The position numbers and the translations under genes are program-made. The notes below the pieces were generated by a model that saw nothing but the letters and a program-made list of their open reading frames with translations, was not told the DNA's origin and did not search any database. From Pseudomonadota bacterium (GTDB lineage Bacteria > Pseudomonadota > Gammaproteobacteria > Steroidobacterales > Steroidobacteraceae): DNA of 64,000 bases. The DNA lies in assembly GCA_018241505.1 (NCBI GenBank), contig JAFEDS010000017.1, positions 62,001 through 126,000 of the forward strand, written 5' to 3'. Positions 15,109 through 34,042 of this stretch are shown here, piece by piece. Numbering within the stretch: the first letter of the stretch is position 1; each line of letters opens with the position of its first letter.

Positions 15109-15705
15109 TCAGAACTGCTTTGCCAACAGGGCAAAACCTCGACGGATATAGTACCGCAATGGGTGGGCTGCATCAGCCTGCCTCCACTGGTCCAGCGCCA
15201 GACGCAGCGTACCCATGGCCACCATCGCGACCAAGCGCAGCCCGTCCCGCCGTGCCGGTGCCGGCCAAAGTTCACACATTGCGTCCAACAGGATCTGCTC
15301 TGCCTCGACGAAACCGGCTTCCTTGCGTGCGCGAAGTGCTTCAGTTGATTGCATCAGGTGGTCATAGACGATGGATTCCTTTGTCTCATAGCGCGACGCG
15401 AGCTTGATCAAACACTCGCGGACTGCAACCACAGGAGTCTGCCCGGGGGACTCGTTGAGCAGTGCGGGCCGCAACGCATGGCGGAATCCGCGATCGTGCG
15501 CGACCAACAGGATGTCCTCCTTGGAACCGAAATAGTAGAAGAATGTGCGGCGCGAAATGCCGGCCGCCTGAGCAATGGCCTCGAGGGTCGTACCCTCGTA
15601 GCCGTTTTTCACAAACAGTTTCAGGCCGCTTTCGATGAGCCGCTCCGCTGTCTCGCGCCGCTTGCGTTCCCTGAGGCCCTCTGGCTTTTCCGACGCCGCA
15701 CTCAT
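15109..15705 (-). CDS. TetR/AcrR-family regulator
   Basis: 198 residues from ATG 15705. The N-terminal HTH (about 12-58) reads ETAERLIESGLKLFVKNGYEGTTLEAIAQAAGISRRTFFYYFGSK across the usual TetR helices, and the rest is a helical ligand and dimer domain. An upstream in-frame extension exists but overlaps the divergent promoter. It faces the FAD monooxygenase gene. Two matching inverted repeats lie between them, so it probably represses that gene and itself. Its stop abuts the aminotransferase remnant, so its own C-terminus may have been altered; the terminal RRGFALLAKQF looks normal. Confidence 0.9.
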   Translation of the reverse strand: MSAASEKPEGLRERKRRETAERLIESGLKLFVKNGYEGTTLEAIAQAAGISRRTFFYYFGSKEDILLVAHDRGFRHALRPALLNESPGQTPVVAVRECLIKLASRYETKESIVYDHLMQSTEALRARKEAGFVEAEQILLDAMCELWPAPARRDGLRLVAMVAMGTLRLALDQWRQADAAHPLRYYIRRGFALLAKQF

Positions 15706-15728
15706 CCGAGTCGTTTCCTGCTGCGCTC

Positions 15729-15773
15729 TTGAAATATTACACCGAGTGTAATATAAAATCGCACCCAGTGCGA
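15729..15773 (+). promoter_or_regulatory. Sigma-70 promoter carrying two TetR-type operators
   Basis: A promoter TTGAAA (15729-15734), 17 bp, TATAAA (15752-15757) drives the monooxygenase. The inverted repeat ATATTACAC-cga-GTGTAATAT (15734-15754) fills its spacer. A second repeat of the same plan, TCGCAC-cca-GTGCGA (15759-15773), covers the expected start point. Both share the core CAC-C(G/C)A-GTG. This is a textbook repressor layout for the TetR protein encoded next door. Confidence 0.75.
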
Positions 15774-15794
15774 ACATTTGTGGAGACTCTTTTT

Positions 15795-17312
15795 TTGCTG
15801 CATGATGTTGTGATAGCCGGCGCAGGCCCCGTCGGATTGTTTCTTGCGTGCGAGCTACGGCTGGCCAATCTCTCGGTGTTGGTGCTCGAGCAAGCCGAGG
15901 ACTTTCGCTCCCCGCTGAAGCGCCTTCCATTCGGCCTGCGTGGTCTTTCCGTACCCACCATCGAGGCCTTCGACCGGCGCGGGCTGCTGAACGACATCTC
16001 TACATGGCAGCGTACGCGAGATTCCGCCAGCAGCGCGTCGACTCTCCCGCATTGGATGAATCAGCCGCGTCGCCCCGGGGGCCATTTCGCCGGCATTCAA
16101 TTCTACCAAGACACCATCGACACCTCGAAGTGGCGCTACAGGCTGCCGAGTGCAGCCATCACCCCCATCGCGGTCGAGATGGAGCACCTCGAATCCGTGT
16201 TGGCGGCTCGGGCCAGCGCGATGGGGGTGCAGATCAGGCGCGGCATCGGCGTGGCAGGCTTCAGTCAGTCGGACGAAGAAGTGCGGATTTTCGCCGGCGG
16301 CGCTGCTTTTCGCGCACGCTGGCTCGTTGGTTGTGACGGCGCCCGCAGCGCTGTTCGTAAAGCCGGCGATTTTACCTTCGCCGGCACCGATCCCGAATTT
16401 ACCGGCTACTCCGTTGAAGTTGAGTTGGCCGATCCGAATGGTCTCGCGCCCGGCCGCCACTACACAGCGGCGGGCATGTATACCTATTCGAAACCCGGGA
16501 CCATCGCAATGGTCGATTACGACGGCGGTGCTTTCCACCGAACCCAACCGATCAGTCTCGAGCATGTCCAGTCGGTGTTGCGCCGCGTTACGGGCACCGA
16601 TGTCACATTGAACGCCCTCGGCCTCGCCACAACCTGGACGGATCGCGCCTATCAGGCGACCACCTATAGCAACGCGCGAGTGCTACTGGCCGGCGATGCC
16701 GCGCACATTCATTCCCCTTTGGGTGGCCAGGGTCTCAACCTCGGGCTGGGTGACGCGATGAACCTTGGCTGGAAGCTGGCTTCTACCATCCGAGGCACTG
16801 CCCCGGCAGGCCTGCTCAATAGCTATTCGAGCGAACGACATCCGGTAGGAGCGCAGATCCTCGACTGGTCGCGCGCCCAAGTGGCGCTCATGCGGCCGAC
16901 GCCAAGCACCCGCGCGCTCGAAGCTGTCATTCGTGGTCTCATCGACACGCGCGACGGCGCGACCTATTTTGCCGAGCGCGTGTGGGGCATTTCCGTTCGC
17001 TATGATCTTGGCGGGCATCCGCTGGAGGGCCGTAGTGCTCCCGATTTTGAGTTGGTCAATGGCGCAAGACTCGCTGCGTTCCTCCAGCACGGGAAAGGCT
17101 TGCTGTTGGACTTTGACGCTCGGCCTGAGCTCAGAGCGCTCGCAGGCCGCTGGGGCAATCAATTGAGCTATGTGGCAGGCGAAGTCAAGGATCGCCTCGG
17201 CCTGAGCGCGGTGCTCGTGCGTCCCGACGGCGTTGTTGCCTGGGCCGCTGCGGGCGCCGCCATTCCTGATTGTGAGCAAGCGGCTCGAGCCGCCTGCCAA
17301 TGGTTTGGCTGA
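15795..17312 (+). CDS. FAD-dependent aromatic monooxygenase (PheA/TfdB/MhpA type)
   Basis: 505 residues from TTG 15795, chosen because GGAG lies just before it and the FAD motif GAGPVG must be close to the N-terminus. The motif DG in LVGCDGARS, and GDAAHIHSPLGGQGLNLGLGDAMNLGWKL for FAD ribityl binding, complete the group A flavoprotein monooxygenase pattern. The C-terminal thioredoxin-like tail (about 400-505) is typical of phenol/resorcinol hydroxylases. These enzymes hydroxylate phenolic rings with NAD(P)H. The gene is controlled by the divergent TetR protein. Its specific substrate is unknown. Confidence 0.88.
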   Translation: MLHDVVIAGAGPVGLFLACELRLANLSVLVLEQAEDFRSPLKRLPFGLRGLSVPTIEAFDRRGLLNDISTWQRTRDSASSASTLPHWMNQPRRPGGHFAGIQFYQDTIDTSKWRYRLPSAAITPIAVEMEHLESVLAARASAMGVQIRRGIGVAGFSQSDEEVRIFAGGAAFRARWLVGCDGARSAVRKAGDFTFAGTDPEFTGYSVEVELADPNGLAPGRHYTAAGMYTYSKPGTIAMVDYDGGAFHRTQPISLEHVQSVLRRVTGTDVTLNALGLATTWTDRAYQATTYSNARVLLAGDAAHIHSPLGGQGLNLGLGDAMNLGWKLASTIRGTAPAGLLNSYSSERHPVGAQILDWSRAQVALMRPTPSTRALEAVIRGLIDTRDGATYFAERVWGISVRYDLGGHPLEGRSAPDFELVNGARLAAFLQHGKGLLLDFDARPELRALAGRWGNQLSYVAGEVKDRLGLSAVLVRPDGVVAWAAAGAAIPDCEQAARAACQWFG

Positions 17313-17330: not shown

Positions 17331-17906
17331 TCAAGCGTCGTTGAGGGCGACACCCAGATTGCGAGCCGTGGAGCAGCTATAAGCCTGGCTCTGCGTGCCG
17401 AAGCACCAGGTGATCTCGTTGTTGTTTTGCGGCCGGACGATAGGTCGATCGCCCTCGTTCTTGTGGCAGCCGCAGCGACCGCACGCAGCTCCACCGCAGC
17501 AGTCATTGTAGGAAATGATGTAGTGACGGTCATCGGCGGGATTTCGGCAGGTGCCGATCCACGTGACCGGCGACATTTCAGTTCCGGGCGGACAGGAATT
17601 GACGCTTCCACCACAACAGCTACACAAGGCGCCGTCGATGGCGCAGTAGCGCCAATAGTCACAGCTTGTCGGATCGCCTGGATCCTGAGGATTCCCCGTA
17701 CTGTGCTCACTGTGCGTGCCGGAAGGGCCGGGGGTATCCGCGCCTTTGTCGCTTCCACGGGCTACTGGCAGCAGCGGCAGGCCGCTAGTGCCCACCAACA
17801 CGCCGCCCACGATATTCAACAATCCACGGCGTGATGTCCGGCCCGCCAGTGCCCGGGAAAGCCGCTCGGTCATGACATCAAACCTTTTGACACGATTCAT
17901 GCTCAC
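17331..17906 (-). CDS. aauA: TTQ aralkylamine (aromatic amine) dehydrogenase light chain
   Basis: 191 residues. A Tat signal (RTSRRGLLNIVGG at about 23-35) precedes a Cys-rich domain. Trp116 (VTWIGTC) and Trp167 (ITWCFG) are the two residues that become the tryptophan tryptophylquinone cofactor. Asp91 (AIDGA) and Asp135 (YNDCC) match the catalytic and maturation aspartates. There are 14 cysteines; the extra pair in CSCCGG and AACGRCGC is, from memory, a mark of aromatic amine dehydrogenase rather than methylamine dehydrogenase. The enzyme oxidises primary amines to aldehydes in the periplasm and passes electrons to a cupredoxin. It lies 14 bp after the heavy chain gene. The maturation genes (E, D, G type) are absent from the window. 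Confidence 0.9.
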   Translation of the reverse strand: MSMNRVKRFDVMTERLSRALAGRTSRRGLLNIVGGVLVGTSGLPLLPVARGSDKGADTPGPSGTHSEHSTGNPQDPGDPTSCDYWRYCAIDGALCSCCGGSVNSCPPGTEMSPVTWIGTCRNPADDRHYIISYNDCCGGAACGRCGCHKNEGDRPIVRPQNNNEITWCFGTQSQAYSCSTARNLGVALNDA

Positions 17907-17920
17907 CTCGTGGTTCTCGC

Positions 17921-19078
17921 CTACCGAACGGCCTCGATCAGAACGCTCCTGTGTCCCCCGGTCATGTCCAGACTGCGCACGAAACTGCCGTGCGGCAGCT
18001 CATACACATCCAGCTTTTCCCTGGATGCGACCAGCAATAGCGGCTCACGATCATGAGTAACTTCGATCGATGACGCGGGTCGGACGAGCCGTATTCTCGC
18101 CACGCGTGTGCGGGAGGCAGGATCGAAAACCCACACCTCAGTCCCCGCATCCTTGTGCGTTCCCTCATGAGCGTTGGGCTGCATGATCACATACAACCGC
18201 CCATCATCCCCGCTCGTGATGAGCTGGTTTCCACTGGGGCGCCAATTGGCCGCAGCCTCCTCCGGGCTCACCAGTGACCAATCGGGTAGGATCTTCGCCT
18301 CCGCCCCACGTAGATCCAACGGCTGAATGCGCCCGAAAAAACTGGGGAAGTAGCGGATACCGTTGGCCACGGCCGACGTCGTGAACAACGGGTCCTCATC
18401 CAGCAGGTTGAAGGGCGCAGATTCCGTCTGACTGGCGAGGCTGCCCTTTGCATCCAACTGCACGTTCAGCAACGTTCCGTTCCCGCACAATGTGGCAAAG
18501 CCGCGGGGTCCGCTGGGGAATGCCAGTGTGCAGCCGGGAATTGCAACCTCGCTGAGCACCTTGCGCCGTACCAGGTCCACCACGGTTACGGAGGCGGCTG
18601 GAGTAAAGTTGAACACCGTAGCCAACTGCTCGTCGGCAGCGAAACTGAACATCCCCTGCATGGGCACTACGAGAGCCCGCTTCGCCTTGGGCAACACGAC
18701 TTCACCAACAGGCAGGAGCGTCTGCTTGTCGTAGATCGTGATGAAATCCGTTCTGGGCCCGCGATTGCCACGCGCCCACACAGTGTCGGCCACATAGAGC
18801 TCCGGGCGCTTGTTGCTCACCAGCAAAGTCGCGGACTCGTGGCCCGGCAGATGCCCTTCGACCGCACGCTCGTCGCTGCCCACATCACGCAACTCGAACT
18901 TGTCGTTCGAATACGCAAGGAACGCCCATCCCTTCGGATACTCCGCAGGCAACTTGCGTACAGTCAGACCGGTATCGACAGGCAACGGCGTTGGAAACCG
19001 ATCGATCGTGGCACCCTGCGCCAGACCGCCGGCGAGCGCCAGCGCGCAGGCGGCGCTGACCAACTTGGTCGTTTGCAT
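17921..19078 (-). CDS. aauB: TTQ aralkylamine/methylamine dehydrogenase heavy chain
   Basis: 385 residues with a Sec signal peptide (about 1-23, ALAGGLAQGA). The body is a seven-bladed propeller rich in beta strands; recognisable family stretches include ELYVADTVWARGNRGPRTDFITIYD, GCTLAFPSGPRGFATLCGNG and the near-terminal THDREPLLLVASREKLDVYE. Two heavy and two light chains make the periplasmic amine dehydrogenase. The immediate upstream promoter carries the CTGTGATC-N-CAG element, and an SD (GAGAGGGG) lies before ATG 19078. Order B-A without intervening E and D genes is unusual for this system. Confidence 0.9.
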   Translation of the reverse strand: MQTTKLVSAACALALAGGLAQGATIDRFPTPLPVDTGLTVRKLPAEYPKGWAFLAYSNDKFELRDVGSDERAVEGHLPGHESATLLVSNKRPELYVADTVWARGNRGPRTDFITIYDKQTLLPVGEVVLPKAKRALVVPMQGMFSFAADEQLATVFNFTPAASVTVVDLVRRKVLSEVAIPGCTLAFPSGPRGFATLCGNGTLLNVQLDAKGSLASQTESAPFNLLDEDPLFTTSAVANGIRYFPSFFGRIQPLDLRGAEAKILPDWSLVSPEEAAANWRPSGNQLITSGDDGRLYVIMQPNAHEGTHKDAGTEVWVFDPASRTRVARIRLVRPASSIEVTHDREPLLLVASREKLDVYELPHGSFVRSLDMTGGHRSVLIEAVR

Positions 19079-19111
19079 TGTTGTAGTGCCCCTCTCGGCC
19101 GCGACGCATAA

Positions 19112-19156
19112 AAACTACCAGCTCGGATCGACAGCAGTCAAGTTCTGTGATCTCAG
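19112..19156 (-). promoter_or_regulatory. Promoter of the amine dehydrogenase genes with CTGTGATC-N-CAG element
   Basis: On the minus strand the 12-mer CTGAGATCACAG (19156-19145) is followed after 3 bp by TTGACT (-35, 19141-19136), an 18-bp spacer and TAGTTT (-10, 19117-19112). This predicts a start about 27 bases before the heavy chain ATG. The same 12-mer, with the same 3-bp distance to TTGAC, occurs at 23561-23572. Confidence 0.65.
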
Positions 19157-19297
19157 ATTTTCAGAGCACTCTGCGTGTCCTCAGTACTCCCATGTAGGGC
19201 CCGAACTGCAGCCACAGAGTTTCGATGAGTTGCAGCAGGGTGCGGCGCGGTTGGGCGCGGTAGAGAAGGAAGTGGAAACCGGGGACATGAGCCTATT

Positions 19298-19309
19298 CTG
19301 CGATCACAG
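19298..19309. promoter_or_regulatory. Additional CTGTGATC-N-CAG element after the esterase gene
   Basis: CTGCGATCACAG lies 3 bp beyond the esterase stop and 220 bp upstream of the heavy chain start. It is identical to the copy at 23561-23572, but no TTGAC box lies next to it. It may be an auxiliary site for the amine dehydrogenase promoter. Confidence 0.45.
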
Positions 19310-19312
19310 TAA

Positions 19313-20986
19313 TCAGGGCGCCGTCACCTGGTCCCTTACCAACTCAGCGAGGCGGATGGACTGCTCATCCTCGAAAACCGCAGAAGGCACCCGGTCCCAC
19401 GCAACGCGCTCTTCGGCAAAGGGATCCAATAGCACACAACTACGTTGATTCAACTCCATGGTCGCGCGCGTGCCGGAGTCATACTTCGGCCAGCTTGGAA
19501 GCTCCGGGTTGTTGGGGTTTCCCGTCCTGGCGAAGGCGCTCCATGCCGCCACGACTCGATCTGCGAGGCGCTCCCATGTGCCTTTGGGGCCCACGTAGGC
19601 GTAGGACAACGGCGTCGTCACGTGGAATACGAAAGGGAGCTCAATGCCATGCATTGCTCCATAAGCCAGTCCCGTCGGTCCTGGCGCGGGCGAGCGGTAT
19701 GCGAAAGAGTAGAAATAGGTGGGTTGGCGCCGGCTGTTCTCTTCCGCGAGGCGGATCGAGGGTAGGCGAAGGAGCGCGTCCGAAAGCAGCGTCTCAAAGG
19801 CCGTCGCGTCGTTGGGGGCGCCGTGCCTGTAGTGCTCGACAATCGCCCGAGCCTCATCGGCTTTTCCGACCCGGTCGAGTCCGAGGAAGGCCACCAGGTT
19901 GTGCGCCATCGCCGTGGCAGATTGCTCATCGAGCGGCAGTCCGTACATGGCGATAAAGTAGCGCATCTCCTCAGCATTGGTGCCGATCAACATCGGTACG
20001 GCAGCCGCGGGATCCGCGTGAAATGCTTCGACGATAGGCCCCTTGAACAGGGTCCCATCGTTTACCAGGCCGAACGTGGCGTGATAGCGCGGATCTTCGA
20101 ACAGCCGCCGCTGTGCCGCGAGTAACTTCGCTACCGGCAGGTTGCGCAGCTCCGTGACTGTCTTCACGGCCGCGAGCTTCATGAGCTGACCGGCGAGCGC
20201 CGCTGCTTTATCGACTGACAGCAGCGGCCCGGTATCGCCGCTTTGGATGATAACTTTGTGAAACAGCCCGCGCGCGCCGGCAGCGACCAACAGAGCGCGA
20301 ATGCTCGCGCCGCCGGATGACTCGCCGAACAGGGTCACGTTGCCCGGGTCACCCCCGAATCGGGCGATGTTGTGTTGGATCCACGCGAGCGCGGCAATTT
20401 GATCCAGGATGCCGTTGTTGCCGCTTTGTACGTACTTCGGCCCGCCGAGACGCCCCAGGTACGCAAACCCGAGGGCACCCAGCCGGTACTGCAGAGTGAC
20501 CACGACGACCTTGCCGCGCCGCGCGAGCTCGCTTCCCTCATAGAAGGAGTCCGCGGCGCTGCCTTCGAAGAGCGAGCCACCGTGAATGAAGACCATGACC
20601 GGCAATGGACCTGTAGCCGACTGGGGCGTCCAGACATTGAGAGTCAGGCAATCCTCACACTGGATCACATCGCCGTCTTCGGAGCTGTCGTAGGCATCGA
20701 GCACTTGCGGACATGCGGGTCCGCGCGCCTGGGCATTCCGTACCCCTTGCCAAGGCGAAGCGCTCTGCGGCGGCCGGAATCGCAAAGATCCCACAGGCGC
20801 GGCGGCGTATGGGATGTTGAGAAAGAGATCGACCCCACCTCGTTCCACTCCCAACAACTTGCCGGCGGTCACCTCACGGAGGATGTCGGTGCCACCCAGC
20901 AGAAAATCCTGAGGCGCCGCCGCTGCCGCAACCTGTAGCCGCAAGAGAGTCAGAAGTGCAGCAATGATCCGCAGCCGCGACAGCAT
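19313..20986 (-). CDS. Exported type-B carboxylesterase
   Basis: 557 residues with a Sec signal peptide (about 1-24). Motifs of the cholinesterase-like alpha/beta hydrolase family are all present: NIPYAAAPVGSLRF, CEDCLTLNVW (110-119), the oxyanion HGGS (135-138), nucleophile elbow GESSGG with Ser223, the acid in TNAEE, and the catalytic His in AMHGIELPF. The family cleaves carboxylic esters and some carbamates and amides. The gene begins 8 bp after the penicillin-acylase-family gene, so both are read from one promoter, and it is followed by the amine dehydrogenase genes. This suggests it removes an ester-linked group from the same substrate. Confidence 0.9.
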   Translation of the reverse strand: MLSRLRIIAALLTLLRLQVAAAAAPQDFLLGGTDILREVTAGKLLGVERGGVDLFLNIPYAAAPVGSLRFRPPQSASPWQGVRNAQARGPACPQVLDAYDSSEDGDVIQCEDCLTLNVWTPQSATGPLPVMVFIHGGSLFEGSAADSFYEGSELARRGKVVVVTLQYRLGALGFAYLGRLGGPKYVQSGNNGILDQIAALAWIQHNIARFGGDPGNVTLFGESSGGASIRALLVAAGARGLFHKVIIQSGDTGPLLSVDKAAALAGQLMKLAAVKTVTELRNLPVAKLLAAQRRLFEDPRYHATFGLVNDGTLFKGPIVEAFHADPAAAVPMLIGTNAEEMRYFIAMYGLPLDEQSATAMAHNLVAFLGLDRVGKADEARAIVEHYRHGAPNDATAFETLLSDALLRLPSIRLAEENSRRQPTYFYSFAYRSPAPGPTGLAYGAMHGIELPFVFHVTTPLSYAYVGPKGTWERLADRVVAAWSAFARTGNPNNPELPSWPKYDSGTRATMELNQRSCVLLDPFAEERVAWDRVPSAVFEDEQSIRLAELVRDQVTAP

Positions 20987-20994
20987 AGGGTATC

Positions 20995-23481
20995 TCAGTT
21001 GGTCGGGTGAGCTGTGCTGCGCCGAGTGGCAGCATAGGTCAGGTGCCGTGTTGCGACGGCCGCGCTTTTTACCGACTCAGGCGACATGTCGATTCGCTTC
21101 AGCTCGTTCTCAGTATGCATCTGCACCTGGTCGGACAGGTTCGGGTTGCCCTTGCCACTCGGATCAATGAACAGGTTCTGTCCGCCCGCCTCGACGACTG
21201 AATACAGCGCGGGTTGATTGGGGTCGATCTCCATGAGGCCCACCCAACCTTCACCCCCATTGTGCCGTACAACCGCCGGGCCGAGCCCCAGTACCGCGAA
21301 TGTACGGGTGCTCACAGACTCGCCGCCCGGCAGTGCGGGACGTTCGGGCGTCTGCAGCGCCGCGTTGTAATATTTCCAGAAGATCGGCAACCGCCATTGC
21401 GACATGTCCTTGCCGGTGAATGCGGGCTTCAGAGTGTCGATAGTTTGACGCAGCGTCTGAACCAATACTGCGTTGCGATCCTGGCCCTTGAAATAGTCGA
21501 ATTGCAGCGGCAGGCCGGCCGCCTCCCCTTGCACAGCGCGCAGCAACAGGCTGGTCTGATACTTGTGATAGCGGTCGGCGTCGATCTTCCACCACCAATC
21601 GCCGATTGACGGACCAAAAATCACTCCCGGCGCGACCTGCAGCCAGGTCCGAAAGATCGTCAGACCCGGATTATCGTACTGCCCGTCCCGATCGAGGTCC
21701 TCGTAAAGACCGTTGAACGATAACATCAGCTCAGCCGCGCGTTTGACCTCGGCGTCGTCCGTTCCGGCGACTGCGGCGCGGATATACGGCGCGAAGAAGG
21801 CCGGCGAGGTGTTTGTGTGATCGCGCGCGCCCAGTCCATTGAAGATTTTGCGATTGATTTCCCGCATATCCAACAATGTCAGCGCGTGGCCCGCGGCAGC
21901 CAATTCGGTTCCCAGATACGTGCGGAATGCCTTACCGATGCGAGCATCATCGCCCTCGGGACTCCACCTCGTCGCCTTGCTGTTCCAGGTGTGTATGAAT
22001 CCTTGCTTTGGATTGAGCATGTGGGGACGCTCGTTGACCGAGAGAAAACCGTCCCATTCGTATTCACCAGTTCCCGGTGTAGGCAGGCGGGAGTCCGCGT
22101 TGGGCGAGCGTTTGGGAATCAGACCGGCTTCCCAGAAACCGAATTGCCCGTCGGCATTGCCGTAGCACACACCGAGATTCCAGGCCAGCTTGGACACTCC
22201 CTTGTCCTGGAATTCCTGGAGATTCCGGGCACGGGCCAGCTCGACAATCGCAACCCAATTGTCCAGCTCCTTGCCGCGGACCGCGTACCGCTCCGAAAAG
22301 GCGGTTTGCCGTGCAACGTCCCAACTGACGATGGGGCCGTGAACGGTCCAAGCGACCTCATGCGTAACGGGGGCGGCGCCCTTGACCCGGATCGTTTCTT
22401 TGCGGGTTTCCATACGCAGCCAGGCTCCCTTGTATCGGTACCGATATCGATCCTTCGGGTTGAGCTGCTCCGCGTAGGTGGTGGTTGTATCCGCATTTCC
22501 GGAAGTTAAAAGCCAGCCGTGATCCAGCGACCGTCCCATGATGGGTGGCCCCCAACCGGGAGTACTGAAGCCTGCGGTATCGAAGCCGCCGCCATGCAAG
22601 TGGGATTCCGGGCCATCGGCGGTCGCTTCCAGCATGAGGACGTGGCCGCTCGCCGAGCGAGTTGGGCCGATGACGAGGCAGCGACTCGCCTCTGTTCTGG
22701 GCACGGACGCGACTCTTACCGCCACGCCCGCCGTGCTTGCGGATAGAGGATAGGGGTGCGGCTGCGGCATCGGCTGCGCCGGCGCGAGATCCTCCCCCGC
22801 CGGAATCGTGGTCGGCGAGTCAGGATCGCTGAGCGGGACCACATCATCGAAGATGGTGCGGCCGACTTTTTGCCCATACCTGGCGACCATTGCCTGCAGG
22901 AATGCCAGGTTCTGCAGTTCGTAGCCTTCCCGATCATGCGGCGTAGCGGCCACCACACTGAGAAAATCCAACAACGACCAGGGCTGCGGACGGATGCCCC
23001 ACTGCACGAACTCATAAGGAGTATCGTGTTGTGGGTCTCGCGCGATTTCCTCGATTCGGCGGTTGATGCCATCCACCAGGCCCTGCATCATCCTCTGATG
23101 CTCCGCGGGGATGGCTGCATACATGCGCAGCAACTCCTGCTTCGGCAACGCCCGGTCTCGAGCGATGATGTCGGAAGCGACCGCGGAGCTGCCCACCAGC
23201 TCCGCCCGCTGACCGAGAGCACCCCGGCGCGACAGCTCCATCTGCGCCAGCCGATCGCGCGCCAATGCGTATCCCAGACCGAACATCACCTCCGCTGAGC
23301 TCTCGGCGAAGACATGGGGTACTCCCTTGGCATCACGGTAGATCGTGACGTCGGCGGCGGGTCCCACGCTGTCGATGTCGGAAGCGGTCCCAACCGTCTG
23401 AGACGCTGCAATCCCGCCACACAGCGCGGTTGACACAGCGGCAAGGGCAAGCACACGTCGCAGATCTACTGTTGTCATCAA
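20995..23481 (-). CDS. Penicillin-acylase-family N-terminal-nucleophile amidohydrolase
   Basis: 828 residues, the usual length for the precursor. A signal peptide (about 1-27) is followed by the alpha chain (ADVTIYRDAKGVPHVFA ... ARDRLAQMELSRRGALGQRAELVG), a linker, and the beta chain starting at the predicted nucleophile Ser266 (EAS266RCLVIGPTRSASGH). The family self-cleaves before this serine and hydrolyses amides such as penicillins, acyl-homoserine lactones or N-acyl amines in the periplasm. The residues after the serine (R-C) differ from the common S-N-x-W. It is first in an operon with the esterase, and upstream of an amine dehydrogenase that could consume the released amine. Confidence 0.9.
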   Translation of the reverse strand: MMTTVDLRRVLALAAVSTALCGGIAASQTVGTASDIDSVGPAADVTIYRDAKGVPHVFAESSAEVMFGLGYALARDRLAQMELSRRGALGQRAELVGSSAVASDIIARDRALPKQELLRMYAAIPAEHQRMMQGLVDGINRRIEEIARDPQHDTPYEFVQWGIRPQPWSLLDFLSVVAATPHDREGYELQNLAFLQAMVARYGQKVGRTIFDDVVPLSDPDSPTTIPAGEDLAPAQPMPQPHPYPLSASTAGVAVRVASVPRTEASRCLVIGPTRSASGHVLMLEATADGPESHLHGGGFDTAGFSTPGWGPPIMGRSLDHGWLLTSGNADTTTTYAEQLNPKDRYRYRYKGAWLRMETRKETIRVKGAAPVTHEVAWTVHGPIVSWDVARQTAFSERYAVRGKELDNWVAIVELARARNLQEFQDKGVSKLAWNLGVCYGNADGQFGFWEAGLIPKRSPNADSRLPTPGTGEYEWDGFLSVNERPHMLNPKQGFIHTWNSKATRWSPEGDDARIGKAFRTYLGTELAAAGHALTLLDMREINRKIFNGLGARDHTNTSPAFFAPYIRAAVAGTDDAEVKRAAELMLSFNGLYEDLDRDGQYDNPGLTIFRTWLQVAPGVIFGPSIGDWWWKIDADRYHKYQTSLLLRAVQGEAAGLPLQFDYFKGQDRNAVLVQTLRQTIDTLKPAFTGKDMSQWRLPIFWKYYNAALQTPERPALPGGESVSTRTFAVLGLGPAVVRHNGGEGWVGLMEIDPNQPALYSVVEAGGQNLFIDPSGKGNPNLSDQVQMHTENELKRIDMSPESVKSAAVATRHLTYAATRRSTAHPTN

Positions 23482-23787
23482 ACGGCCCGCCGGATTGAGA
23501 GACTAACTCGTTCACTGCAATTAACCAGCATCATGTCATACCTCGATCGTCTGTCAATATCTGCGATCACAGTTGTTGACGAACAACCCGACGGCTGATA
23601 ATTTCCGGCCTCAACGCAGGAGGGGCCCTGCGGCATTTACAGCCAAATACCAGTATTTCTAAAACCTTCAGATGGACCGCGCCATGCCGTTCTGTACCTG
23701 AAGCATTCGTCTGGATGTACTTAGAATTCGTCCAGTCTGTGATCTAAGTGGCTCAGATATTGATCGATCAACGACAAGAGGTTACGT
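23482..23787. promoter_or_regulatory. Divergent regulatory region between acylase and TonB receptor genes
   Basis: CTGCGATCACAG at 23561-23572 has a TTGAC box exactly 3 bp away on each side. Leftward there is TTGACA (23557-23552), 16 bp, CATGAT, giving a 42-base leader to the acylase gene. Rightward there is TTGACG (23576-23581), 17 bp, TAATTT (23599-23604) for the receptor. A fourth copy, CTGTGATCTAAG, lies at 23737-23748, 40 bp before the receptor ATG. The outer TGTCAA/TTGACG arms also form an inverted repeat, so the operator may be longer than 12 bp. Confidence 0.65.
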
Positions 23788-26139
23788 ATGAACATCGTCC
23801 GGCGGGTCCAGGGTTCAGCGTTTTTGTGGTTCGGCCCTGCCTTTCTGGCACTATTGGCGCCCACACTGGCTTGCGCGGACGAGGCGGGATCAGACACTCT
23901 GGCGGAAATTGTCGTCACCGCGACGAAGCGCGCCGACCCGCTCAGCAAAGTCCCCATCAGCCTAGTGGCATTGACGCGGGACGCGTTGGATTCGCAAGGC
24001 GTCAGAAACATCCAGGACATTGTGAGCCAGACGCCCGGTGTTGACATCGGGCGAAGCCCTGGCAATGGTCCCGGGATCCGGATCTCCATACGCGGTATCG
24101 ACTCCGATGCGGGCGCCGCGACGACCGGTGTCTATATCGACGATACCGCCATTCAGGCCCGCAACAACTCTGTCAACGTGGCAGGAACCTCGTTTCCGGA
24201 AGTTTTCGACCTCGATCGCGTGGAAGTGCTGCGCGGGCCACAGGGCACCCTCTTCGGCGCGGGAGCTGAAGGCGGCGTGGTGCGCTTCGTAACGGCCCAG
24301 CCTGGCCTGAATGAGTTCTCAGGATACAGTCGCGCCGAAGTCAGCGGCACCCATCGCGGCGGGCCTAGCGGCGAGCTGGGAGCCGCTTTCGGTGGTCCGT
24401 TGCTCGACGGCGTGCTCGGGTTCCGGGCAAGTGTGTGGGACCGTCACGACGGCGGCTACATGAATCGAGTTGCCTGGGAAACCCAGGAGAACCTGCCCAA
24501 TAGCGATTGGAGCAACTCCAAGGTTGCACGGGTCGCGCTGACCTACGCGCCGATTTCGGGAGTCAGTATTACACCCTCGCTTCAGTTTCAGGAGCTGTAT
24601 TCCCATGACTCATCGACAGCCTGGCGTTTGCAGGATAATCCGGCCACAGCTCCCTATCAGAACAGCGCGACACCCTATACCAACGGTTACCAACTGAGAC
24701 AGCCCAGCGATGATTCAACCACGCTGGCGTCACTGAAAGTGGAAGCGATCCGGCCCTCAGTCACATTTACGTCAATCTCATCCTACTTTCACCGCAACAA
24801 TATCAGTGTGGAGGATTCAACGAACACGGATACGGCGGCCGTTCTTGGCAACGACTACGTTTTTCCGCAATCTCCGGATGGCGGCCTGTACTACGTGGCC
24901 TCCTCGAGTCATGCCAGTCAGAGTGTTCTCACGCAGGAATTGCGCCTGCAAAATACGAGCGCGGACGCGCGCCTGAAGTGGCTCGGCGGCATCTTTTTCT
25001 CACAATCCAAATTGCACGACTCGCTGGCGCAGCCTGCAACGGCATTCCCCGCGCTCTACGAGCAGGTCACGGGCGATTCGTTCGTCGATGACTTCGGCGG
25101 TCCGCTGCTCGATGGCATTTATGAATATACCGGAGATGAGCGCAGTACAGAGACTCAATACGCCCTCTACGGTAATGTGGACTATCTATTCGCCGACAAG
25201 TGGACCCTGACTTTGGGTCTGCGAGCCGCTCTCACCGAAGTGAAGTACGCGATCGTCGAGAACGGCCCCGAAGGCCCCGTCGCCGATGTACCGACGGGCA
25301 CATCAGGAACACAGAAGGATCATCCGGTCACCCCGAAAGTCGGCCTGAGCTGGCAGCCTGACGAACACAACATGATTTACGGCTCCATCGCCAAAGGCTA
25401 TCGCATCGGCGGCGTGAATTCCGGAATTCCCAGCTATTGCGGCGCAGATGCGGTCCTGGCAGCGAGCCCAACGTACAAATCCGACACGACAATGAGCTAT
25501 GAGCTCGGCGCAAAGAGTCGGCCCGCCGGCGGCCGGCTGCAGATCGATGCCAGCATCTACCATATCGACTGGAAAGACATTCAGCAGACCCTGTCATTCA
25601 TTTGCGGATATGGATATACCGGCAACGCCGGGCGCGCGCGCAGCGATGGCTTCGATCTGAGCATCAACGTCCAGATCATGAAAGCCTGGACCGCCGGTAT
25701 TACCGTCGGCCACACCAATGCCAAGTTCACTACCGATACAATCAATCCGGCCGGGCAGCTCGTGATCGTCGAAGGCGAGACCCTGGGACAGACACCCTGG
25801 ACATTGTTTGGCTTTACTCAGTACGGCTTTCCCATCGCCCGCAACTGGAATGGCTACCTGCGAATTCAGGAAAAATATAATAGCCGCAATCACAACGTCC
25901 TCGGACTTGCAGACACAACACACAATTCCGATCCGGACTACCATCCGAATGATGCAATGAGTCAGCTCGATGTCCGCGCCGGACTCACATTCAATCGATT
26001 CGACGTTTCGCTGTTTGTCAACAATGTGACCGACCGGAATCCGGAGCTCTACGTCCGCCACAACAACGGTTCGCCGCTGTTCACGTACTCGACACTCCGG
26101 CCGCGCACCGCGGGGCTCACGGCCACTTATCGATATTGA
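23788..26139 (+). CDS. TonB-dependent outer-membrane receptor
   Basis: 783 residues. A signal peptide (to about ACA-DE, residue 30) is followed by a TonB box (EIVVTATKRAD), a plug domain with LDRVEVLRGPQGTLFGAGAEGG, and a long beta barrel that ends in the aromatic residue expected for outer-membrane proteins (TATYRY). No STN domain is present, so it is not a signalling receptor. It imports a bulky substrate using the proton motive force via TonB. The shared upstream motif suggests it brings in the molecule attacked by the acylase, esterase and amine dehydrogenase encoded to its left. Confidence 0.93.
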   Translation: MNIVRRVQGSAFLWFGPAFLALLAPTLACADEAGSDTLAEIVVTATKRADPLSKVPISLVALTRDALDSQGVRNIQDIVSQTPGVDIGRSPGNGPGIRISIRGIDSDAGAATTGVYIDDTAIQARNNSVNVAGTSFPEVFDLDRVEVLRGPQGTLFGAGAEGGVVRFVTAQPGLNEFSGYSRAEVSGTHRGGPSGELGAAFGGPLLDGVLGFRASVWDRHDGGYMNRVAWETQENLPNSDWSNSKVARVALTYAPISGVSITPSLQFQELYSHDSSTAWRLQDNPATAPYQNSATPYTNGYQLRQPSDDSTTLASLKVEAIRPSVTFTSISSYFHRNNISVEDSTNTDTAAVLGNDYVFPQSPDGGLYYVASSSHASQSVLTQELRLQNTSADARLKWLGGIFFSQSKLHDSLAQPATAFPALYEQVTGDSFVDDFGGPLLDGIYEYTGDERSTETQYALYGNVDYLFADKWTLTLGLRAALTEVKYAIVENGPEGPVADVPTGTSGTQKDHPVTPKVGLSWQPDEHNMIYGSIAKGYRIGGVNSGIPSYCGADAVLAASPTYKSDTTMSYELGAKSRPAGGRLQIDASIYHIDWKDIQQTLSFICGYGYTGNAGRARSDGFDLSINVQIMKAWTAGITVGHTNAKFTTDTINPAGQLVIVEGETLGQTPWTLFGFTQYGFPIARNWNGYLRIQEKYNSRNHNVLGLADTTHNSDPDYHPNDAMSQLDVRAGLTFNRFDVSLFVNNVTDRNPELYVRHNNGSPLFTYSTLRPRTAGLTATYRY

Positions 26140-26191: not shown

Positions 26192-27616
26192 CTACTCGGC
26201 GTATCCCAAAACGGCTTTGATCTCGAGAAACTCGGCAAAGCCGTATTCGCCCCACTCTCGACCGTTGCCGCTTCTTTTGTACCCTCCGAAGGGCGCGAAT
26301 AAATCGCCCCCCGCACCATTGATTCCGACTCGGCCTGCGCGCAGTCGGGCGGCAATCCTATGGATTCCGGTGGGACTGGATCCCCAGATGTAGGCGGCCA
26401 ATCCGTACTCGGTGTCATTGGCGATCTCGACTGCCTGCTCCATGCAGTCGTAGGTGAGGATTGAAAGTACGGGCCCGAAGATTTCCTCCCGTGCAATTCT
26501 CATAGTGTTTTTCACGTGAGCAAAGACGGTGGGCTTGACGTAATAGCCGGTGTCCAGACCGGGTGGATGGCCCTCGCCGCCCGTAACGAGTGTCGCGCCT
26601 TCGTCGATTCCGCTCCTGATCAAATCCTGGATCTTCTGCCACTGAGTTGCGGAAGCTACCGGGCCCATGTTTGCACCGCTCGCCGGATCGCCCACTTGAA
26701 TGGACTCGGCGACCGTCTTCGCAATAGCAATGGCCTCGTCCCTGTATTTTGAGTGCACCAACATCCGCGTGGCGGCATTGCAGGACTGTCCAGAGTTCCC
26801 CATGACGTTTCTGACGCTGGCCGTGACCGCCACTTCCAGGTCGGCGTCTTCCAGGATAATGGTTGGCGACTTGCCGCCCAATTCCTGCGCAACTCGTTTC
26901 ACGGTTGGCGCGGCCGCTTTCGCGATCTCGATACCGGCGCGCGTGGAGCCGGTGAATGAAATCATGTCCACCTGCGGATGCGAGGAGATCGCGGCGCCGG
27001 TCGTGACACCGTCCCCATTGACGAGATTGAAGACGCCCTCGGGAAGTCCGGCGGCATGCACGATCTCAGCGAACAAGTACGCTGAGAATGGCGCGACTTC
27101 GGAGGGTTTCAACACAACCGTGCAACCTGTCGCAAGGGCCGGTGCAACCTTGCAGGCGAGCTGATTCATTGGCCAGTTCCACGGAGTAATCAGGCCACAC
27201 ACTCCGATCGGCTCCTTCAGGATTCGCGTGGTACCGCGCGTCTCCTCGAAAACGAAATTCTTCAATACCGCCACGGCCGTTTCCAGATGCGCAAGCCCAC
27301 TTCGGGTCTGCGCATTGCGGGCCAGAGCCACGGGAGCGCCCATCTCTTCCGTGATTGCGTCCGCGATTTCGTCAGACCGGCGTCGATACTCGGCGATGAT
27401 TCGCTCGAGGGCGCCGATGCGTGCCTGGCGGCTGGTGAGGGACCATTCGCCGAATGCCCGGCGTGCCGCTCGGACCGCCAGGTCGACCTCAGCGGCGCCA
27501 GCCACAGATATCCGACCCGCTTCCTGCCCAGTGGCGGGGTTGATCACAGCAAGTGTCCGAGGCTTCGCCGGCTCAACCCAAACCCCATCAATGTAGAACT
27601 TCAGATAGTCGCGCAT
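26192..27616 (-). CDS. NAD(P)-dependent aldehyde dehydrogenase
   Basis: 474 residues with the full family pattern: TPWNWPMNQ, the general base Glu in QELGGKSP and the catalytic Cys in NSGQSCNAAT, plus EEIFGPVL and the C-terminal GGYKRSGNGRE. It oxidises an aldehyde to the acid in the cytoplasm. It is the last gene of the sigma/FecR/TonB operon, 8 bp after the MFS gene. The aldehyde could come from that operon's substrate or from the amine dehydrogenase next to it; position favours the first. Confidence 0.93.
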   Translation of the reverse strand: MRDYLKFYIDGVWVEPAKPRTLAVINPATGQEAGRISVAGAAEVDLAVRAARRAFGEWSLTSRQARIGALERIIAEYRRRSDEIADAITEEMGAPVALARNAQTRSGLAHLETAVAVLKNFVFEETRGTTRILKEPIGVCGLITPWNWPMNQLACKVAPALATGCTVVLKPSEVAPFSAYLFAEIVHAAGLPEGVFNLVNGDGVTTGAAISSHPQVDMISFTGSTRAGIEIAKAAAPTVKRVAQELGGKSPTIILEDADLEVAVTASVRNVMGNSGQSCNAATRMLVHSKYRDEAIAIAKTVAESIQVGDPASGANMGPVASATQWQKIQDLIRSGIDEGATLVTGGEGHPPGLDTGYYVKPTVFAHVKNTMRIAREEIFGPVLSILTYDCMEQAVEIANDTEYGLAAYIWGSSPTGIHRIAARLRAGRVGINGAGGDLFAPFGGYKRSGNGREWGEYGFAEFLEIKAVLGYAE

Positions 27617-27624
27617 TCAGATCC

Positions 27625-28938
27625 TCAGGCCGGGCTTTTTGCTCCAACTTTGATGGGTGCCGTTTCCGGCATGAGCTGCATGGCCATCAGACCCACAGCA
27701 ACACCCCCCATCATGTACCAGGCGGGCGTGAGCGGATTTCCGGTGAGCCGGGTGACCCACGCCACCAGGAATTGCGTAGAGCCGCCGAACACCGAAATCG
27801 CCAACGCATAGATGATGGAGAGAGCTCCCGATCTGACGCGATGCGGCAGCGCCTCCGTTACTGCAACCAGCGACACCGAGGTGGACAGAGTCGAGGTGCT
27901 AGCCAGCACCGCGCACGCCAGTAGCAGTGCACCGGTCGTACGCTCGCGCTCAATCAACGCGAAACAGGGAAACACGAGCAGAGCCAGGCACAGCCAGGGA
28001 ATCACCATGATGGGCTTGCGCCCAAAGCGATCCGACAGCCATCCCCCCAGCGGATCGCAGACCACTCCGCAAAGACCCACCATCGCAGTCGCAGCGAATG
28101 CAACCCCCGACCTCATGCCGAGAGTTGAATTGGCGTACGTAGTCATGTAGTCGAGCAGATAGTTCGTCGTGGTGGCTGAGGCAATCAGCGCAAAGCCGGC
28201 TGCTGCGACACGGATATAACTTGCGAAGGCGGGGTTTGGGTCGCGCGTACCCACCAGCTCCAGGGTTTCGTGGAGCATGCGCCGCAGAACGAGTCCCACC
28301 GGAATGATGACGGCACCCGCTAACAGCGCTACGCGCCATCCCCAACTGTCCAGCGCGGCGTTGTCCAGCACCCTCGATAGTCCGACTCCCACGGCACCGG
28401 CAACCAACACCGCAACATCGGCACTCGTTGCCTGAAGCGAAATGTAAAACCCGCGCCGCCCAGGCGGTGCGGCCTCCATCAGAAAGGCGGTGCTTGGACC
28501 CACTTCCCCACCCAGCGCGAAACCCTGTATCAGACGAAACATCACCGCGAGGATCGGCGCGGCAATTCCGATCGTGGCATACGACGGCACGAGCGGCAGC
28601 CCAACCACCGCGACTGCGATCAAGCTGAATGATACGAGCATGGCCGGTTTGCGGCCGGCTCGATCCCCGTAGCGCCCCAGCACCACAGCCCCCAGCGGCC
28701 GGGTCAGAAATCCCACTCCGAAGGTGGCAAGGGAAGCCAGCAGGCTGACTTCAGGCTCGTCGGAAGGAAAGAATGCGCGGCCGATCTGCGCGGCGAAGAA
28801 TGCATAGGTAACGAAATCATAGAATTCGACGGCGTTGCCCAGAGCGACTGCAAGAATCTGCCGGGCCGGCAGACCCGTTGCGGCCGCATTGACAATAGAA
28901 GCGCCCACGGCGGCCTCAGGAGTTCGCGCCTCGTCCAT
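27625..28938 (-). CDS. MFS transporter, metabolite:H+ symporter (MHS) type
   Basis: 437 residues with about 12 membrane segments. The MHS signatures are clear: GNAVEFYDFVTYAFFA in helix 1, GRYGDRAGRKPAM in the first loop, RLIQGFALGGEVGPS in helix 4 and WLSDRFGRKPIM in the middle loop. Such carriers import dicarboxylates, shikimate, betaine or other organic acids across the inner membrane. The start ATG 28938 is chosen because it lies 5 bp after the preceding stop. Its place after two periplasmic hydrolases suggests it takes up their product. Confidence 0.9.
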   Translation of the reverse strand: MDEARTPEAAVGASIVNAAATGLPARQILAVALGNAVEFYDFVTYAFFAAQIGRAFFPSDEPEVSLLASLATFGVGFLTRPLGAVVLGRYGDRAGRKPAMLVSFSLIAVAVVGLPLVPSYATIGIAAPILAVMFRLIQGFALGGEVGPSTAFLMEAAPPGRRGFYISLQATSADVAVLVAGAVGVGLSRVLDNAALDSWGWRVALLAGAVIIPVGLVLRRMLHETLELVGTRDPNPAFASYIRVAAAGFALIASATTTNYLLDYMTTYANSTLGMRSGVAFAATAMVGLCGVVCDPLGGWLSDRFGRKPIMVIPWLCLALLVFPCFALIERERTTGALLLACAVLASTSTLSTSVSLVAVTEALPHRVRSGALSIIYALAISVFGGSTQFLVAWVTRLTGNPLTPAWYMMGGVAVGLMAMQLMPETAPIKVGAKSPA

Positions 28939-28943
28939 TACGC

Positions 28944-30044
28944 TCAAGCGCCCCAAACTCGTTCGTACACACGCAGCCAGTTTTCACCCAGCACCTGGCG
29001 CACCTGCGCCGCGGACCAGCCTCGTTCCAGCAGGCCTCGTGTGAGATTCGGCAGGTTGCCGATATTCTCGAAGCCCTTTACGTAGAACCACGGCATCTGC
29101 TGACTGTAGGCCTCAGGCGCCATCACGAGCCGGTCTGCCGGTGACAGCGGCCCCGGGTTGTTGCGCCCTTCAATGAAATCCGGACCCAGGCCGATGTGTT
29201 CCACGCCAATCAACCGTTTGAGATAGTCGTACTGATCCAAGTGGCGGGCGAGATCCACCTGCGGCGTTCGTACTACGCCGCTGTCGCTGGACTTGCGAGC
29301 ATGGAAATCGTTGAAAGCCGATAGTCCGATTACGCCCCCCGTGCGCGCAATCGCTTCCAGCAAACGATCGGAAGAGCAGCGTGGATTGTCATTCAACGCA
29401 CGAACGTTGGTATGGCTGCAGATGACGGGTACGCCGGCTGAGATCGCGATCGCATCAAATGAGGTCTGCTCGCCGGTGTGGCCCCCGACGTCGAGTACCA
29501 TGCTAGCCCGGTGAACTTCCTCGACCAGTCGCCGTCCTGCTCGCGTCAGACCCACCTGAGCATCGAGGCAACCACCTCCAAAGTCGTTTGCAGTGTTGTA
29601 GGCAATTCCGCAGATTCGCAAGCCGAGCTGCCGGTAGGCACGTAGATTCTGCGGCTGAGGGTCACCCGCCACGATCAGGGCATCTGCCGATTGCCAACCC
29701 GCCACGTGAGAGATCAACTGCTGCTCCCGTAGCTTCCTGATCTCCCTGACACTGCCGGCCGGCGCGATCTGCGCTGTGTGCTCATCGAAGAATTTGAACA
29801 GCGCTGCGAAGCTGCCCATGTCGTCCCCGACACTGTGGTGCCAACAACTCACGCCGCCGGCTTTGAGCAGAGTCAAATACGCCTCACTCAGATCGGAAGG
29901 GTCCAGACCGTTGACAACGAGGGTGGAACGCTGCAGCGCCGCAACGGCATCGTCACTGCTTGTCTGGGGTTGTGTCCGGCCCGCCTGCATGGCGCCTGCT
30001 GCACCCAGGGCAAGCGAGCTACGTACAAACTCGCGCCGATCCAT
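28944..30044 (-). CDS. Tat-exported M19 (renal dipeptidase-like) protein lacking the first metal-ligand pair
   Basis: 366 residues from ATG 30044, whose A is shared with the previous stop (TAATG), implying coupled translation. A Tat signal, DRREFVRSSLALGAAG, opens the protein. Family features are DVGGHTGEQTSFDAI and VICSHTNVRAL, which hold two expected histidines, and the C-terminal GENWLRVYERVW. The usual H-x-D near the N-terminus (DGHND) reads NGLDP here, so one zinc site is probably absent. Classical members cleave dipeptides or beta-lactams; this branch may be altered in chemistry. It lies between a serine hydrolase and an MFS carrier in the same operon. Confidence 0.85.
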   Translation of the reverse strand: MDRREFVRSSLALGAAGAMQAGRTQPQTSSDDAVAALQRSTLVVNGLDPSDLSEAYLTLLKAGGVSCWHHSVGDDMGSFAALFKFFDEHTAQIAPAGSVREIRKLREQQLISHVAGWQSADALIVAGDPQPQNLRAYRQLGLRICGIAYNTANDFGGGCLDAQVGLTRAGRRLVEEVHRASMVLDVGGHTGEQTSFDAIAISAGVPVICSHTNVRALNDNPRCSSDRLLEAIARTGGVIGLSAFNDFHARKSSDSGVVRTPQVDLARHLDQYDYLKRLIGVEHIGLGPDFIEGRNNPGPLSPADRLVMAPEAYSQQMPWFYVKGFENIGNLPNLTRGLLERGWSAAQVRQVLGENWLRVYERVWGA

Positions 30045-31501
30045 TACGACTTCACACGTGCCATCAAGCGTTCCCAACTCGAGACGAATCTCATCCGCCC
30101 ATCGGGCCCTGGCCGGATAAAGCGCACCATCATGTCGCTGCCACCAGGGGTGGTATCCTTCCCCGCAAATGTGTCGTTGCCGACGGACACCAACTCAGTA
30201 GCCGCACTGTCCTGATCGACGAAATTGTCAAAGGTATCTATCTTGTCGCGCGTGCGCAGAGCCAGCCCGCCTTCACGGGCCGAAACGATGTAGCGATCGA
30301 TATTGCTCTCGTAAATCCCCACGTAGGGCCTGGGGTCTACGGACCCGGGTCGCGGGTGAGGCGGCGCGGATCGAATTCCGGTCCAGGCCTCCAGGATAGG
30401 ATCCAGGAATGCCTTCTTGAGCTCGTCACCCCGGTCGCAGTTGGTGAGCAACGCTGCGGCGCGGCCGCTCTCGGGGTGCGCAAATAAATGAGACCGTATA
30501 CCTGGCCCTCCGCCGGCATGGCTGAGCAGGCCCCCCGGCGAGATCATCCACCCCAGCCCGACTTTGAGTGCGTTCGCGCCGACGGGCACGAATTCGGCGG
30601 TCGGCTCGCTCATTCTTTTGGCGGACGCCGCAGATAGAATGCGCGCATTGCAGTTACCAACACCGCCATTCATGAGCGCGCGCGCAAAAGCAATCAGATC
30701 AGTGGCCGTGGTCATCTGCGTGGAGCCGGCCGGGGCGAAGCTGGGAGCAAGAAAGGGGCGCGTCGATTGCACGAGCTTTCCCGTAACGCGATCGGTGAGG
30801 TCGCCCACACTCGCGCGAAAGCGCGGCACCTCGAGCGGGTCAACTAACGCGTGCCCCATCCCGAGCGGCTCGTAGATTCGGGACTTGATCAGTGTGTACC
30901 AGCTTTTGCTGCGCAACTTCTGCACCATGTATCCGGCTATCACGGTCGCCATGTTGCAATAGGAAGTTTCCTCACCGGGCGGAAACAGTTGGTCCAGATC
31001 GGCGCACCGTCCGATCGAATCAACAATCCGTTCCTGGTCGGGCCCGTACTCGGGCAGCCAATCGCAGTTGATACCGCTCGTATGGTTCAGAAGCATCCCG
31101 CAGGTCATGCGCTCCAACGCCTGTTTGTCGCGTAGGCGCAGCTCAGGTAAATGCTTTCTCACGGGGTCTTCGAGTGCCACCCTGCCTTCATCCACCAGTT
31201 GCATCAGCAGGGCCGCATTCATGACCTTTGTGATGGAGCCAACATGCATCACTGTGTCGACAGTGACCGGATCGCCCGTCACGCTGTTGCGCAATCCCGC
31301 TGTGGCGGTGTGCAACACTCTTCCGTCCCAGTAGGCAAACGATGCCCCGGTGACGCCGGTGGCCAACCTGGAGGCTTCGAGTCGCTGTGGGTAGTCGCGC
31401 CCGGTCTGCGGGACTTCGAGGCCAGGCCCGGACCGCGCAGCCGGCACTGCGGCAACGACGACACCCGCCGTGTGCTTGATGAATTCCCGACGGGTAGACA
31501 T
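30044..31501 (-). CDS. Tat-exported serine hydrolase of the beta-lactamase/DD-peptidase fold
   Basis: 485 residues. The Tat signal STRREFIKHTAGVV is followed by the class-C fold motifs S89-I-T-K92, Y181-C-N183 and SHAGGGPG. A C-terminal all-beta extension (about 380-485) is typical of the esterase and peptidase members. This group includes esterases, D-aminopeptidases and true AmpC enzymes, and nothing here shows antibiotic resistance. Its ATG overlaps the TonB receptor stop by one base (TGATG), and its stop overlaps the M19 start, so the three are translated together. Confidence 0.9.
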   Translation of the reverse strand: MSTRREFIKHTAGVVVAAVPAARSGPGLEVPQTGRDYPQRLEASRLATGVTGASFAYWDGRVLHTATAGLRNSVTGDPVTVDTVMHVGSITKVMNAALLMQLVDEGRVALEDPVRKHLPELRLRDKQALERMTCGMLLNHTSGINCDWLPEYGPDQERIVDSIGRCADLDQLFPPGEETSYCNMATVIAGYMVQKLRSKSWYTLIKSRIYEPLGMGHALVDPLEVPRFRASVGDLTDRVTGKLVQSTRPFLAPSFAPAGSTQMTTATDLIAFARALMNGGVGNCNARILSAASAKRMSEPTAEFVPVGANALKVGLGWMISPGGLLSHAGGGPGIRSHLFAHPESGRAAALLTNCDRGDELKKAFLDPILEAWTGIRSAPPHPRPGSVDPRPYVGIYESNIDRYIVSAREGGLALRTRDKIDTFDNFVDQDSAATELVSVGNDTFAGKDTTPGGSDMMVRFIRPGPDGRMRFVSSWERLMARVKS

Positions 31502-33960: not shown

Positions 33961-34042
33961 CGATCGTGACCCCTGTGGTGGCATTTTTGCTCAGCTCATC
34001 ACAAGGAAACGCAAGAGGGCTCAAAACCCTCATAGTCGATCG

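Follow-up and report, generated by a model that had tools for sequence, protein, structure and literature searches.

Introduction

The closest described counterparts of the DNA element treated here are sites of GntR-family regulators, and Price et al. report the palindrome GTGATCAC both in front of a gntR-like gene and among AkgR sites, AkgR being an activator (PMC6365646). Here we analysed a stretch of 64,000 nucleotides (nt) on contig C8 of the 7.88-Mb genome G000 (the window), in which the near-palindrome CTGYGATCWMAG occurs four times within a block of genes for an amine dehydrogenase, a carboxylesterase, a penicillin-amidase-type acylase and a TonB-dependent receptor. Our comparisons suggest that this element is likely the operator of a dimeric GntR/FCD protein of a group with MPVREA in the recognition helix, most likely P0005, which would activate the promoters of the block.

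As with AkgR of Rhodobacter sphaeroides and PS417_07240 of Pseudomonas simiae, the GTGATCAC core palindrome goes here with a GntR-family protein and a site precedes the gene cluster of the regulator itself, whereas the context of those systems is deoxyribonate and that of the block is amine dehydrogenase, acylase and TonB receptor (PMC6365646). The exact core is present in C7, C13 and relatives, and the window sites differ from it by one or two letters (GCGATCAC, GTGATCTC, GTGATCTA). The regulator is best read as AkgR-like, by its palindrome and GntR family, and the kind of system is already known, since Price et al. give GTGATCAC as a GntR/AkgR motif (PMC6365646). Literature searches among open-licence papers turned up no such regulon over TonB receptor, acylase and amine dehydrogenase, nothing relevant for CTGTGATCACAG, nothing for TGTGATCACA with GntR and, judged by titles, nothing bacterial for TGTGATCACA with a regulator. 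It seems, then, that a known kind of switch has a new gene set under it. The AkgR study, going by its title, reportedly deals with central carbon metabolism.

A further reference is the FadR (FCD) subfamily with its TKGT/ACMA operators, with which the present system shares the GntR helix-turn-helix joined to FCD and a palindrome with TGT...ACA ends. In FadR-type operators the gap between GT and AC is typically 3 nt, and 2 in some groups (PMC4494728); here GT-GATC-AC leaves 4 nt, and this usual, non-defining feature is absent. Among solved structures, the best match to a profile of three regulators of G000 introduced below is McbR of E. coli (PDB 4p9f, E 6.5e-39). The operator of VanR, ATTGGATCCAAT, is like our element a 12-bp palindrome centred on GATC, but has another half-site.

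Results

Exact matches to CTGYGATCWMAG occur at eight places in G000, four of them in the block. Two more precede GntR/FCD genes, by 106 nt on C7 and by 28 nt on C9, and the remaining two fall within long open reading frames on C2 and C46; a genome scan for the element at unrelated genes thus assigned all six exact places outside long open frames to the block or to the upstream regions of these two FCD-GntR genes. The 20-mer CTGNGATCNCAGNNNTTGAC, in which the site is followed after 3 nt by TTGAC, is found exactly at three places, every one in the block, and at 22 with up to two mismatches (8 for a backward control). With up to one mismatch, CTGTGATCACAG has 11 places. The block and the C7 region around P0005 hold 3 each, the C9 regulator has 1 and the other 4 lie elsewhere, and because its backward control reaches 8, it is this clustering and not the total that counts. 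Loose matches are common, with 103 places for CTGYGATCRCAG and at least 120 for the core TGTGATCACA (both with up to one mismatch), and therefore cannot define a regulon; the tight element alone is informative. Exact TGTGATCACA is found at three places, of which two (C7:193641 and C13:42468) each lie less than 20 kb from one MPVREAL regulator and the third (C46:222882) lies where an open frame ends. G000 itself carries an estimated contamination of 5.67% and compares, at its size, with ~2-5 Mb for most listed genomes of the genus, and is either an expanded genome or a mixed assembly.

Within the window, the four copies were found exactly where the original prediction had placed them, all in the non-coding gaps 19079-19312 and 23482-23787 (Table 1), and they are the only exact ones; the second ends just 3 nt short of the esterase stop codon at 19313. 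Allowing up to two mismatches reveals no excess in the window (33 observed, 30.6 expected), and so the motif by itself is not convincing; the pattern was, moreover, fitted to the same four sites, and its rarity alone therefore proves little. Together with the abundance of loose matches genome-wide, this is what speaks for chance or an unrelated repeat, be it a degenerate pattern fitted to four look-alikes or collapsed CRP-type sites. Chance is opposed by the controlled recurrence of the motif at regulator genes, in this genome and in others (see below). CRP sites carry TGTGA and TCACA 6 nt apart, and we rejected a CRP-type site because the half-sites of the element abut. Chance or an unrelated repeat is, all told, very improbable.

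Candidate regulators were taken from the 23 FCD genes matched in G000, whose upstream DNA was searched around estimated gene starts. The original prediction had seen no matching regulator in the block, and we agree: the candidates sit on other contigs. P0005 (C7:176316-177071) matches the Pfam families GntR (3.9e-17) and, at its C terminus, FCD (5.4e-19), and thereby belongs to the FadR subfamily of GntR proteins. It and the proteins from C9 and C13 are mutual best matches (33-38% identity), and these three alone among the 23 carry MPVREAL in the recognition helix. The core palindrome, with up to one mismatch, lies upstream of all three MPVREAL genes and of 2 of the 20 other FCD genes, an identical pair on C14 and C17 in which the mismatch falls inside GATC; the 12-mer CTGYGATCRCAG lies upstream of the three with 0, 1 and 2 mismatches. 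The pair itself (L036, C14:220602, and L037, C17:5995) encodes one identical FCD-GntR protein, with one copy near a contig end, and is perhaps an assembly duplicate.

The tree of the FCD proteins of G000 is poorly resolved, with 11 of its 19 inner branches open. At four compared positions, which we take to be the FCD metal ligands, the P0005, C9 and C13 proteins read Asn-His-His-Asp, as do 78 of 80 relatives from other genomes (the other two, L071 and L084, are not fully readable); the canonical ligands are Asp-His-His-His, a set that P0005 does not have. In the 18 other FCD rows of this genome, the last of these positions, which is C-terminal, is His in 12 and Asp in none; L033, whose frame is wrong, and L036, a duplicate of L037 in sequence, are omitted from this comparison. 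Against NCBIfam, P0005 scores 93.8 bits for PRK11414.1 (cut-off 225) and 62.3 for the PhnR type (cut-off 271.5), and both it and the C13 protein lie below every NCBIfam cut-off.

Searching with a profile of the three regulators (A1) gave 440 relatives in named genomes, and 80 of these were retained. MPVREA was part of one of the two patterns used in the search, so that the frequency of this sequence among the 80 is partly selected; upstream DNA played no part in the selection. In 370-nt windows around and upstream of the match start, with expectations taken from the remainder of the same loci, TGTGATCACA with up to one mismatch was present in 40 of the 80 loci (2.2 expected), exact TGTGATCACA in 14 (1.2 expected) and TGYGATCRCA in 48 (4.8 expected), while four other palindromes used as controls were found in 0, 0, 1 and 2.

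The palindrome is also associated with a promoter-like sequence. Among 176 oriented TGNGATCNCA sites in the 80 loci, TTGAC starts 1-7 nt past the core at 28, as the commonest pentamer there; the corresponding number for 40-52 nt is 2. When the edges were handled by another rule, the recount came to 29 occurrences, with 0.8 predicted by the background rate. Near six other GATC palindrome forms TTGAC was seen once in 838, and the inward arm GTCAA accompanies 7 of the 176 sites, compared with the 28 for TTGAC. These 28 comprise 13 promoters of the closest group, 8 in sphingomonad loci and 7 others. In the closest group, 13 of 21 loci (L054-L074) show the palindrome, TTGAC and, after 17 or 18 nt, TAG(C/G/T)(G/T)T (TAGCGT, TAGCTT, TAGTTT or TAGGGT), a layout that the heavy-chain promoter of the window shares; in this comparison each -10 box was picked as the best of seven spacings, a choice that flatters it. 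The -10 boxes of the 8 sphingomonad sites are less clear, and the 7 others mostly have none. Six sphingomonad loci also carry TTGAC 24 nt from the palindrome, toward a glutamine-synthetase-like gene, about two helical turns beyond the near position. Across the family, the palindrome with TTGAC 3-6 nt after the core CA was matched in 49 of 217 genomes and the backward control in 2 of 217, these being sequence matches only and the control a weak one, as it contains CTAG.

In the block, the fixed 3-nt gap that the original prediction had described between element and TTGAC is exact for the heavy chain, the acylase and the receptor; it is variable in the relatives, and we rejected a strict 3-nt gap throughout the family, as none of 216 other family genomes contains the exact 20-mer CTGNGATCNCAGNNNTTGAC. 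The single copy at 23561 does have TTGAC 3 nt away on either side, as expected of a site serving both directions. The receptor and heavy-chain promoters look good as predicted (TTGACG-17-TAATTT and TTGACT-18-TAGTTT); of the -10 boxes proposed for the leftward genes, that of the heavy chain looks good and that of the acylase is weak. The carboxylesterase and acylase reading frames lie 8 nt apart and are probably co-transcribed. A longer operator with TTGAC as its arms had been offered as another way to read the same arrangement; it is not supported, because most sites that precede the regulator genes have no arms of this kind and because, in the closest group, a -10-like box follows TTGAC at 17-18 nt.

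The positions of the sites bear on how they would act. As sites lie upstream of the -35 box at such distances, we propose activation: an effector-bound dimer beside the -35 box would aid RNA polymerase at the amine dehydrogenase, acylase-esterase and receptor promoters, and an amine or amide substrate would in this way turn on uptake, deacylation and oxidation jointly. An activator-like regulon element, as originally predicted, is the best reading of a palindrome that adjoins TTGAC upstream of the -35 position here and in relatives. The same family and operator could instead serve repression: bound next to the -35 box, the dimer would block RNA polymerase until an inducer releases it. GntR proteins are frequently repressors, the variable gaps of 0-6 nt are easier to accommodate in that case, and the C9 regulator has its own site directly 3' of the -10-like TTTATAAAT, a position from which it may repress its own gene. 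The sites discussed here, however, lie upstream of the -35 box and not over the core promoter, mostly at 1-7 nt and in six sphingomonad loci at 24 nt, and AkgR is termed an activator (PMC6365646); we regard repression of the block as unlikely.

Table 1. Genes, putative operators and predicted promoter elements of the block (window coordinates)
Feature	Position	Strand	Remarks
Amine dehydrogenase light chain (Me-amine-dh_L)	17331..17906	-	Pfam; NCBIfam 193.4 bits, slightly under cut-off 196.85
Amine dehydrogenase heavy chain (Me-amine-dh_H)	17921..19078	-	Pfam
-10 box TAGTTT, heavy-chain promoter	19112..19117	-	Predicted; 18 nt after -35 box
-35 box TTGACT, heavy-chain promoter	19136..19141	-	Predicted from sequence only
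Operator 1 (putative)	19145..19156	-	Reads CTGAGATCACAG toward amine dehydrogenase genes; exact match; 3 nt before TTGACT
Operator 2 (putative)	19298..19309	+	CTGCGATCACAG; exact match; just outside esterase stop codon; no assigned promoter
Carboxylesterase	19313..20986	-	Pfam
Penicillin-amidase-type acylase	20995..23481	-	Pfam
-10 candidates, acylase promoter (weak)	CATGAT 23530-23535 or ATGATG 23529-23534	-	Predicted; spacing 16 nt or 17 nt, respectively
-35 box TTGACA, acylase-esterase promoter	23552..23557	-	Predicted
Operator 3 (putative)	23561..23572	.	CTGCGATCACAG; exact match; common to divergent acylase and receptor promoters
-35 box TTGACG, receptor promoter	23576..23581	+	Predicted
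-10 box TAATTT, receptor promoter	23599..23604	+	Predicted; 17 nt after -35 box
Operator 4 (putative)	23737..23748	+	CTGTGATCTAAG; exact match to original pattern; 39 nt before receptor start codon
TonB-dependent receptor	23788..26139	+	Pfam

P0005 is not the only protein that could read these sites. A C9 or C13 paralogue, a TetR protein (15109-15930) or the window's own FCD-GntR protein (1774-2412) might do so: the C9 and C13 genes are likewise preceded by the core palindrome, and the TetR and window FCD genes are nearer to the block. The sites at C13, however, are of another flavour, tandem TGTGATCACA-like pairs spaced 19 nt, the TetR gene has no element nearby at up to one mismatch, and the window FCD protein has a different helix (RLPVREAL) and no upstream site, which makes these last two the less likely binders. 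That a regulator other than P0005 reads the block sites is, in our view, rather improbable. The core motif being common to all three MPVREAL regulators, what points to P0005 in particular is the CTG...CAG flanks together with shared gene content. On C13 itself (L237, C13:36001-52000), the GTGATCACA-like palindromes stand in pairs with 19 nt spacing at record positions 42449/42468 and 47028/47047; the regulator has one pair beside it and a different gene is preceded by the other. On their sequence they are a tandem-operator variant of the motif of the block.

The shared gene content lies around P0005 on C7, in the stretch from 150 to 200 kb. This encodes an acylase 67% identical to that of the block, five amine dehydrogenase chains (three heavy, two light), three TonB receptors, of which the two compared are each 37% identical to the receptor of the window, two DAO oxidases, two amidohydrolases and one gamma-glutamyltransferase. 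The acylase paralogue (L021, C7:155781-161120) has one TGA counted in its matched stretch and an open frame of 793 amino acids nonetheless. For a glutamine-synthetase-like gene of the same region, the closest families are type III glutamate-ammonia ligase and gamma-glutamylputrescine synthetase, with scores far below both cut-offs. In the fetched stretches of the relatives' loci, a homologue of this gene is present in 43 of 80, a homologue of the DAO gene at C7:170227 in 40 of 80, and a gene of one or both types in 47 of 80. The theme of the block and of the C7 region is likely amine/amide catabolism.

Further genes of the window surround the block. Adjoining it and running in one direction (26192-31501) are genes for an aldehyde dehydrogenase, a transporter, an M19 dipeptidase and a beta-lactamase-family protein, possibly further steps of the same catabolism; the exact-pattern search of the window found no element there. 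At 31501-35649 follow a TonB receptor with an STN domain, a FecR-like protein and an ECF sigma factor, likely a FecIR-type cell-surface signalling system. Upstream of the block, an XylR/DmpR-like sigma-54 activator (XylR_N, V4R and Sigma54_activat domains) is encoded at 7965-9686. The window's own FCD-GntR gene at 1774-2412 (C8:63774-64412) has RLPVREAL in place of MPVREAL, and no palindrome was found upstream of it.

Discussion

To summarize the comparison, the palindrome accompanies the regulator group across genomes, precedes the regulators' genes and adjoins TTGAC promoters. That the protein activates, which of the three regulators it is and what induces it are inferred; by activation, the element would tie the genes of the block into one unit.

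Several observations weigh against a P0005-operated activator site. In the block, operator 2 has no promoter and is either an auxiliary site or a product of chance, operator 4 lies 3' of the predicted receptor promoter and downstream of its predicted start, and the acylase promoter has a weak -10 box. On C7, no good site lies close to where the operon of the acylase paralogue begins, and the core motif is common to three regulators. The block is absent from all other genomes searched (60 relatives and 369 class genomes), and footprinting of the block itself failed because the acylase matches, one among the 60 at E 1e-50 and one among the 369 at E 1e-100, both came from its own genome. In the relatives, a 12-mer like that originally predicted shows, with up to two mismatches, a weaker excess (26 of 80 windows, 204 of 1831 controls), and the loci are not independent, with several per genus in Pseudovibrio, Shinella, Novosphingobium and Ancylobacter. 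Counted from the core CA, their TTGAC begins at 1-7 nt (at 0-6 when counted from the CAG position, most frequently 4), and a variation of up to 6 nt is more than expected of a strict contact. The 13 promoters of the closest group are probably one promoter by descent, and in the stretch examined the palindrome-TTGAC-TAG promoter was not found in 8 of the 21 closest loci.

Operator function under P0005, with activation of the block, is nonetheless what we consider likely. A wider proposal, which we put forward only tentatively, is that a coherent GntR/FCD subgroup, marked by MPVREA, Asn-His-His-Asp and a 4-nt GT-AC gap, activates from two helically phased places, one next to the -35 box and one some two turns farther upstream, and, in a lineage with two related amine-catabolic regions, coordinates TonB uptake, an N-acylase and a quinoprotein amine dehydrogenase in trans. 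This would be a regulon for the use of specific amide or amine substrates, of a sort that our literature searches did not bring up.

The analysis thereby connects the bare motif with a promoter layout, a likely regulator and a theme in metabolism. For many unstudied bacteria, the sequences compared here suggest the rule that GntR proteins with (A/Q)MPVREA may bind TGTGATCACA-like palindromes, often near glutamine-synthetase-like and DAO-type genes, and if this is true, the motif could predict amine/amide catabolic regulons from sequence.

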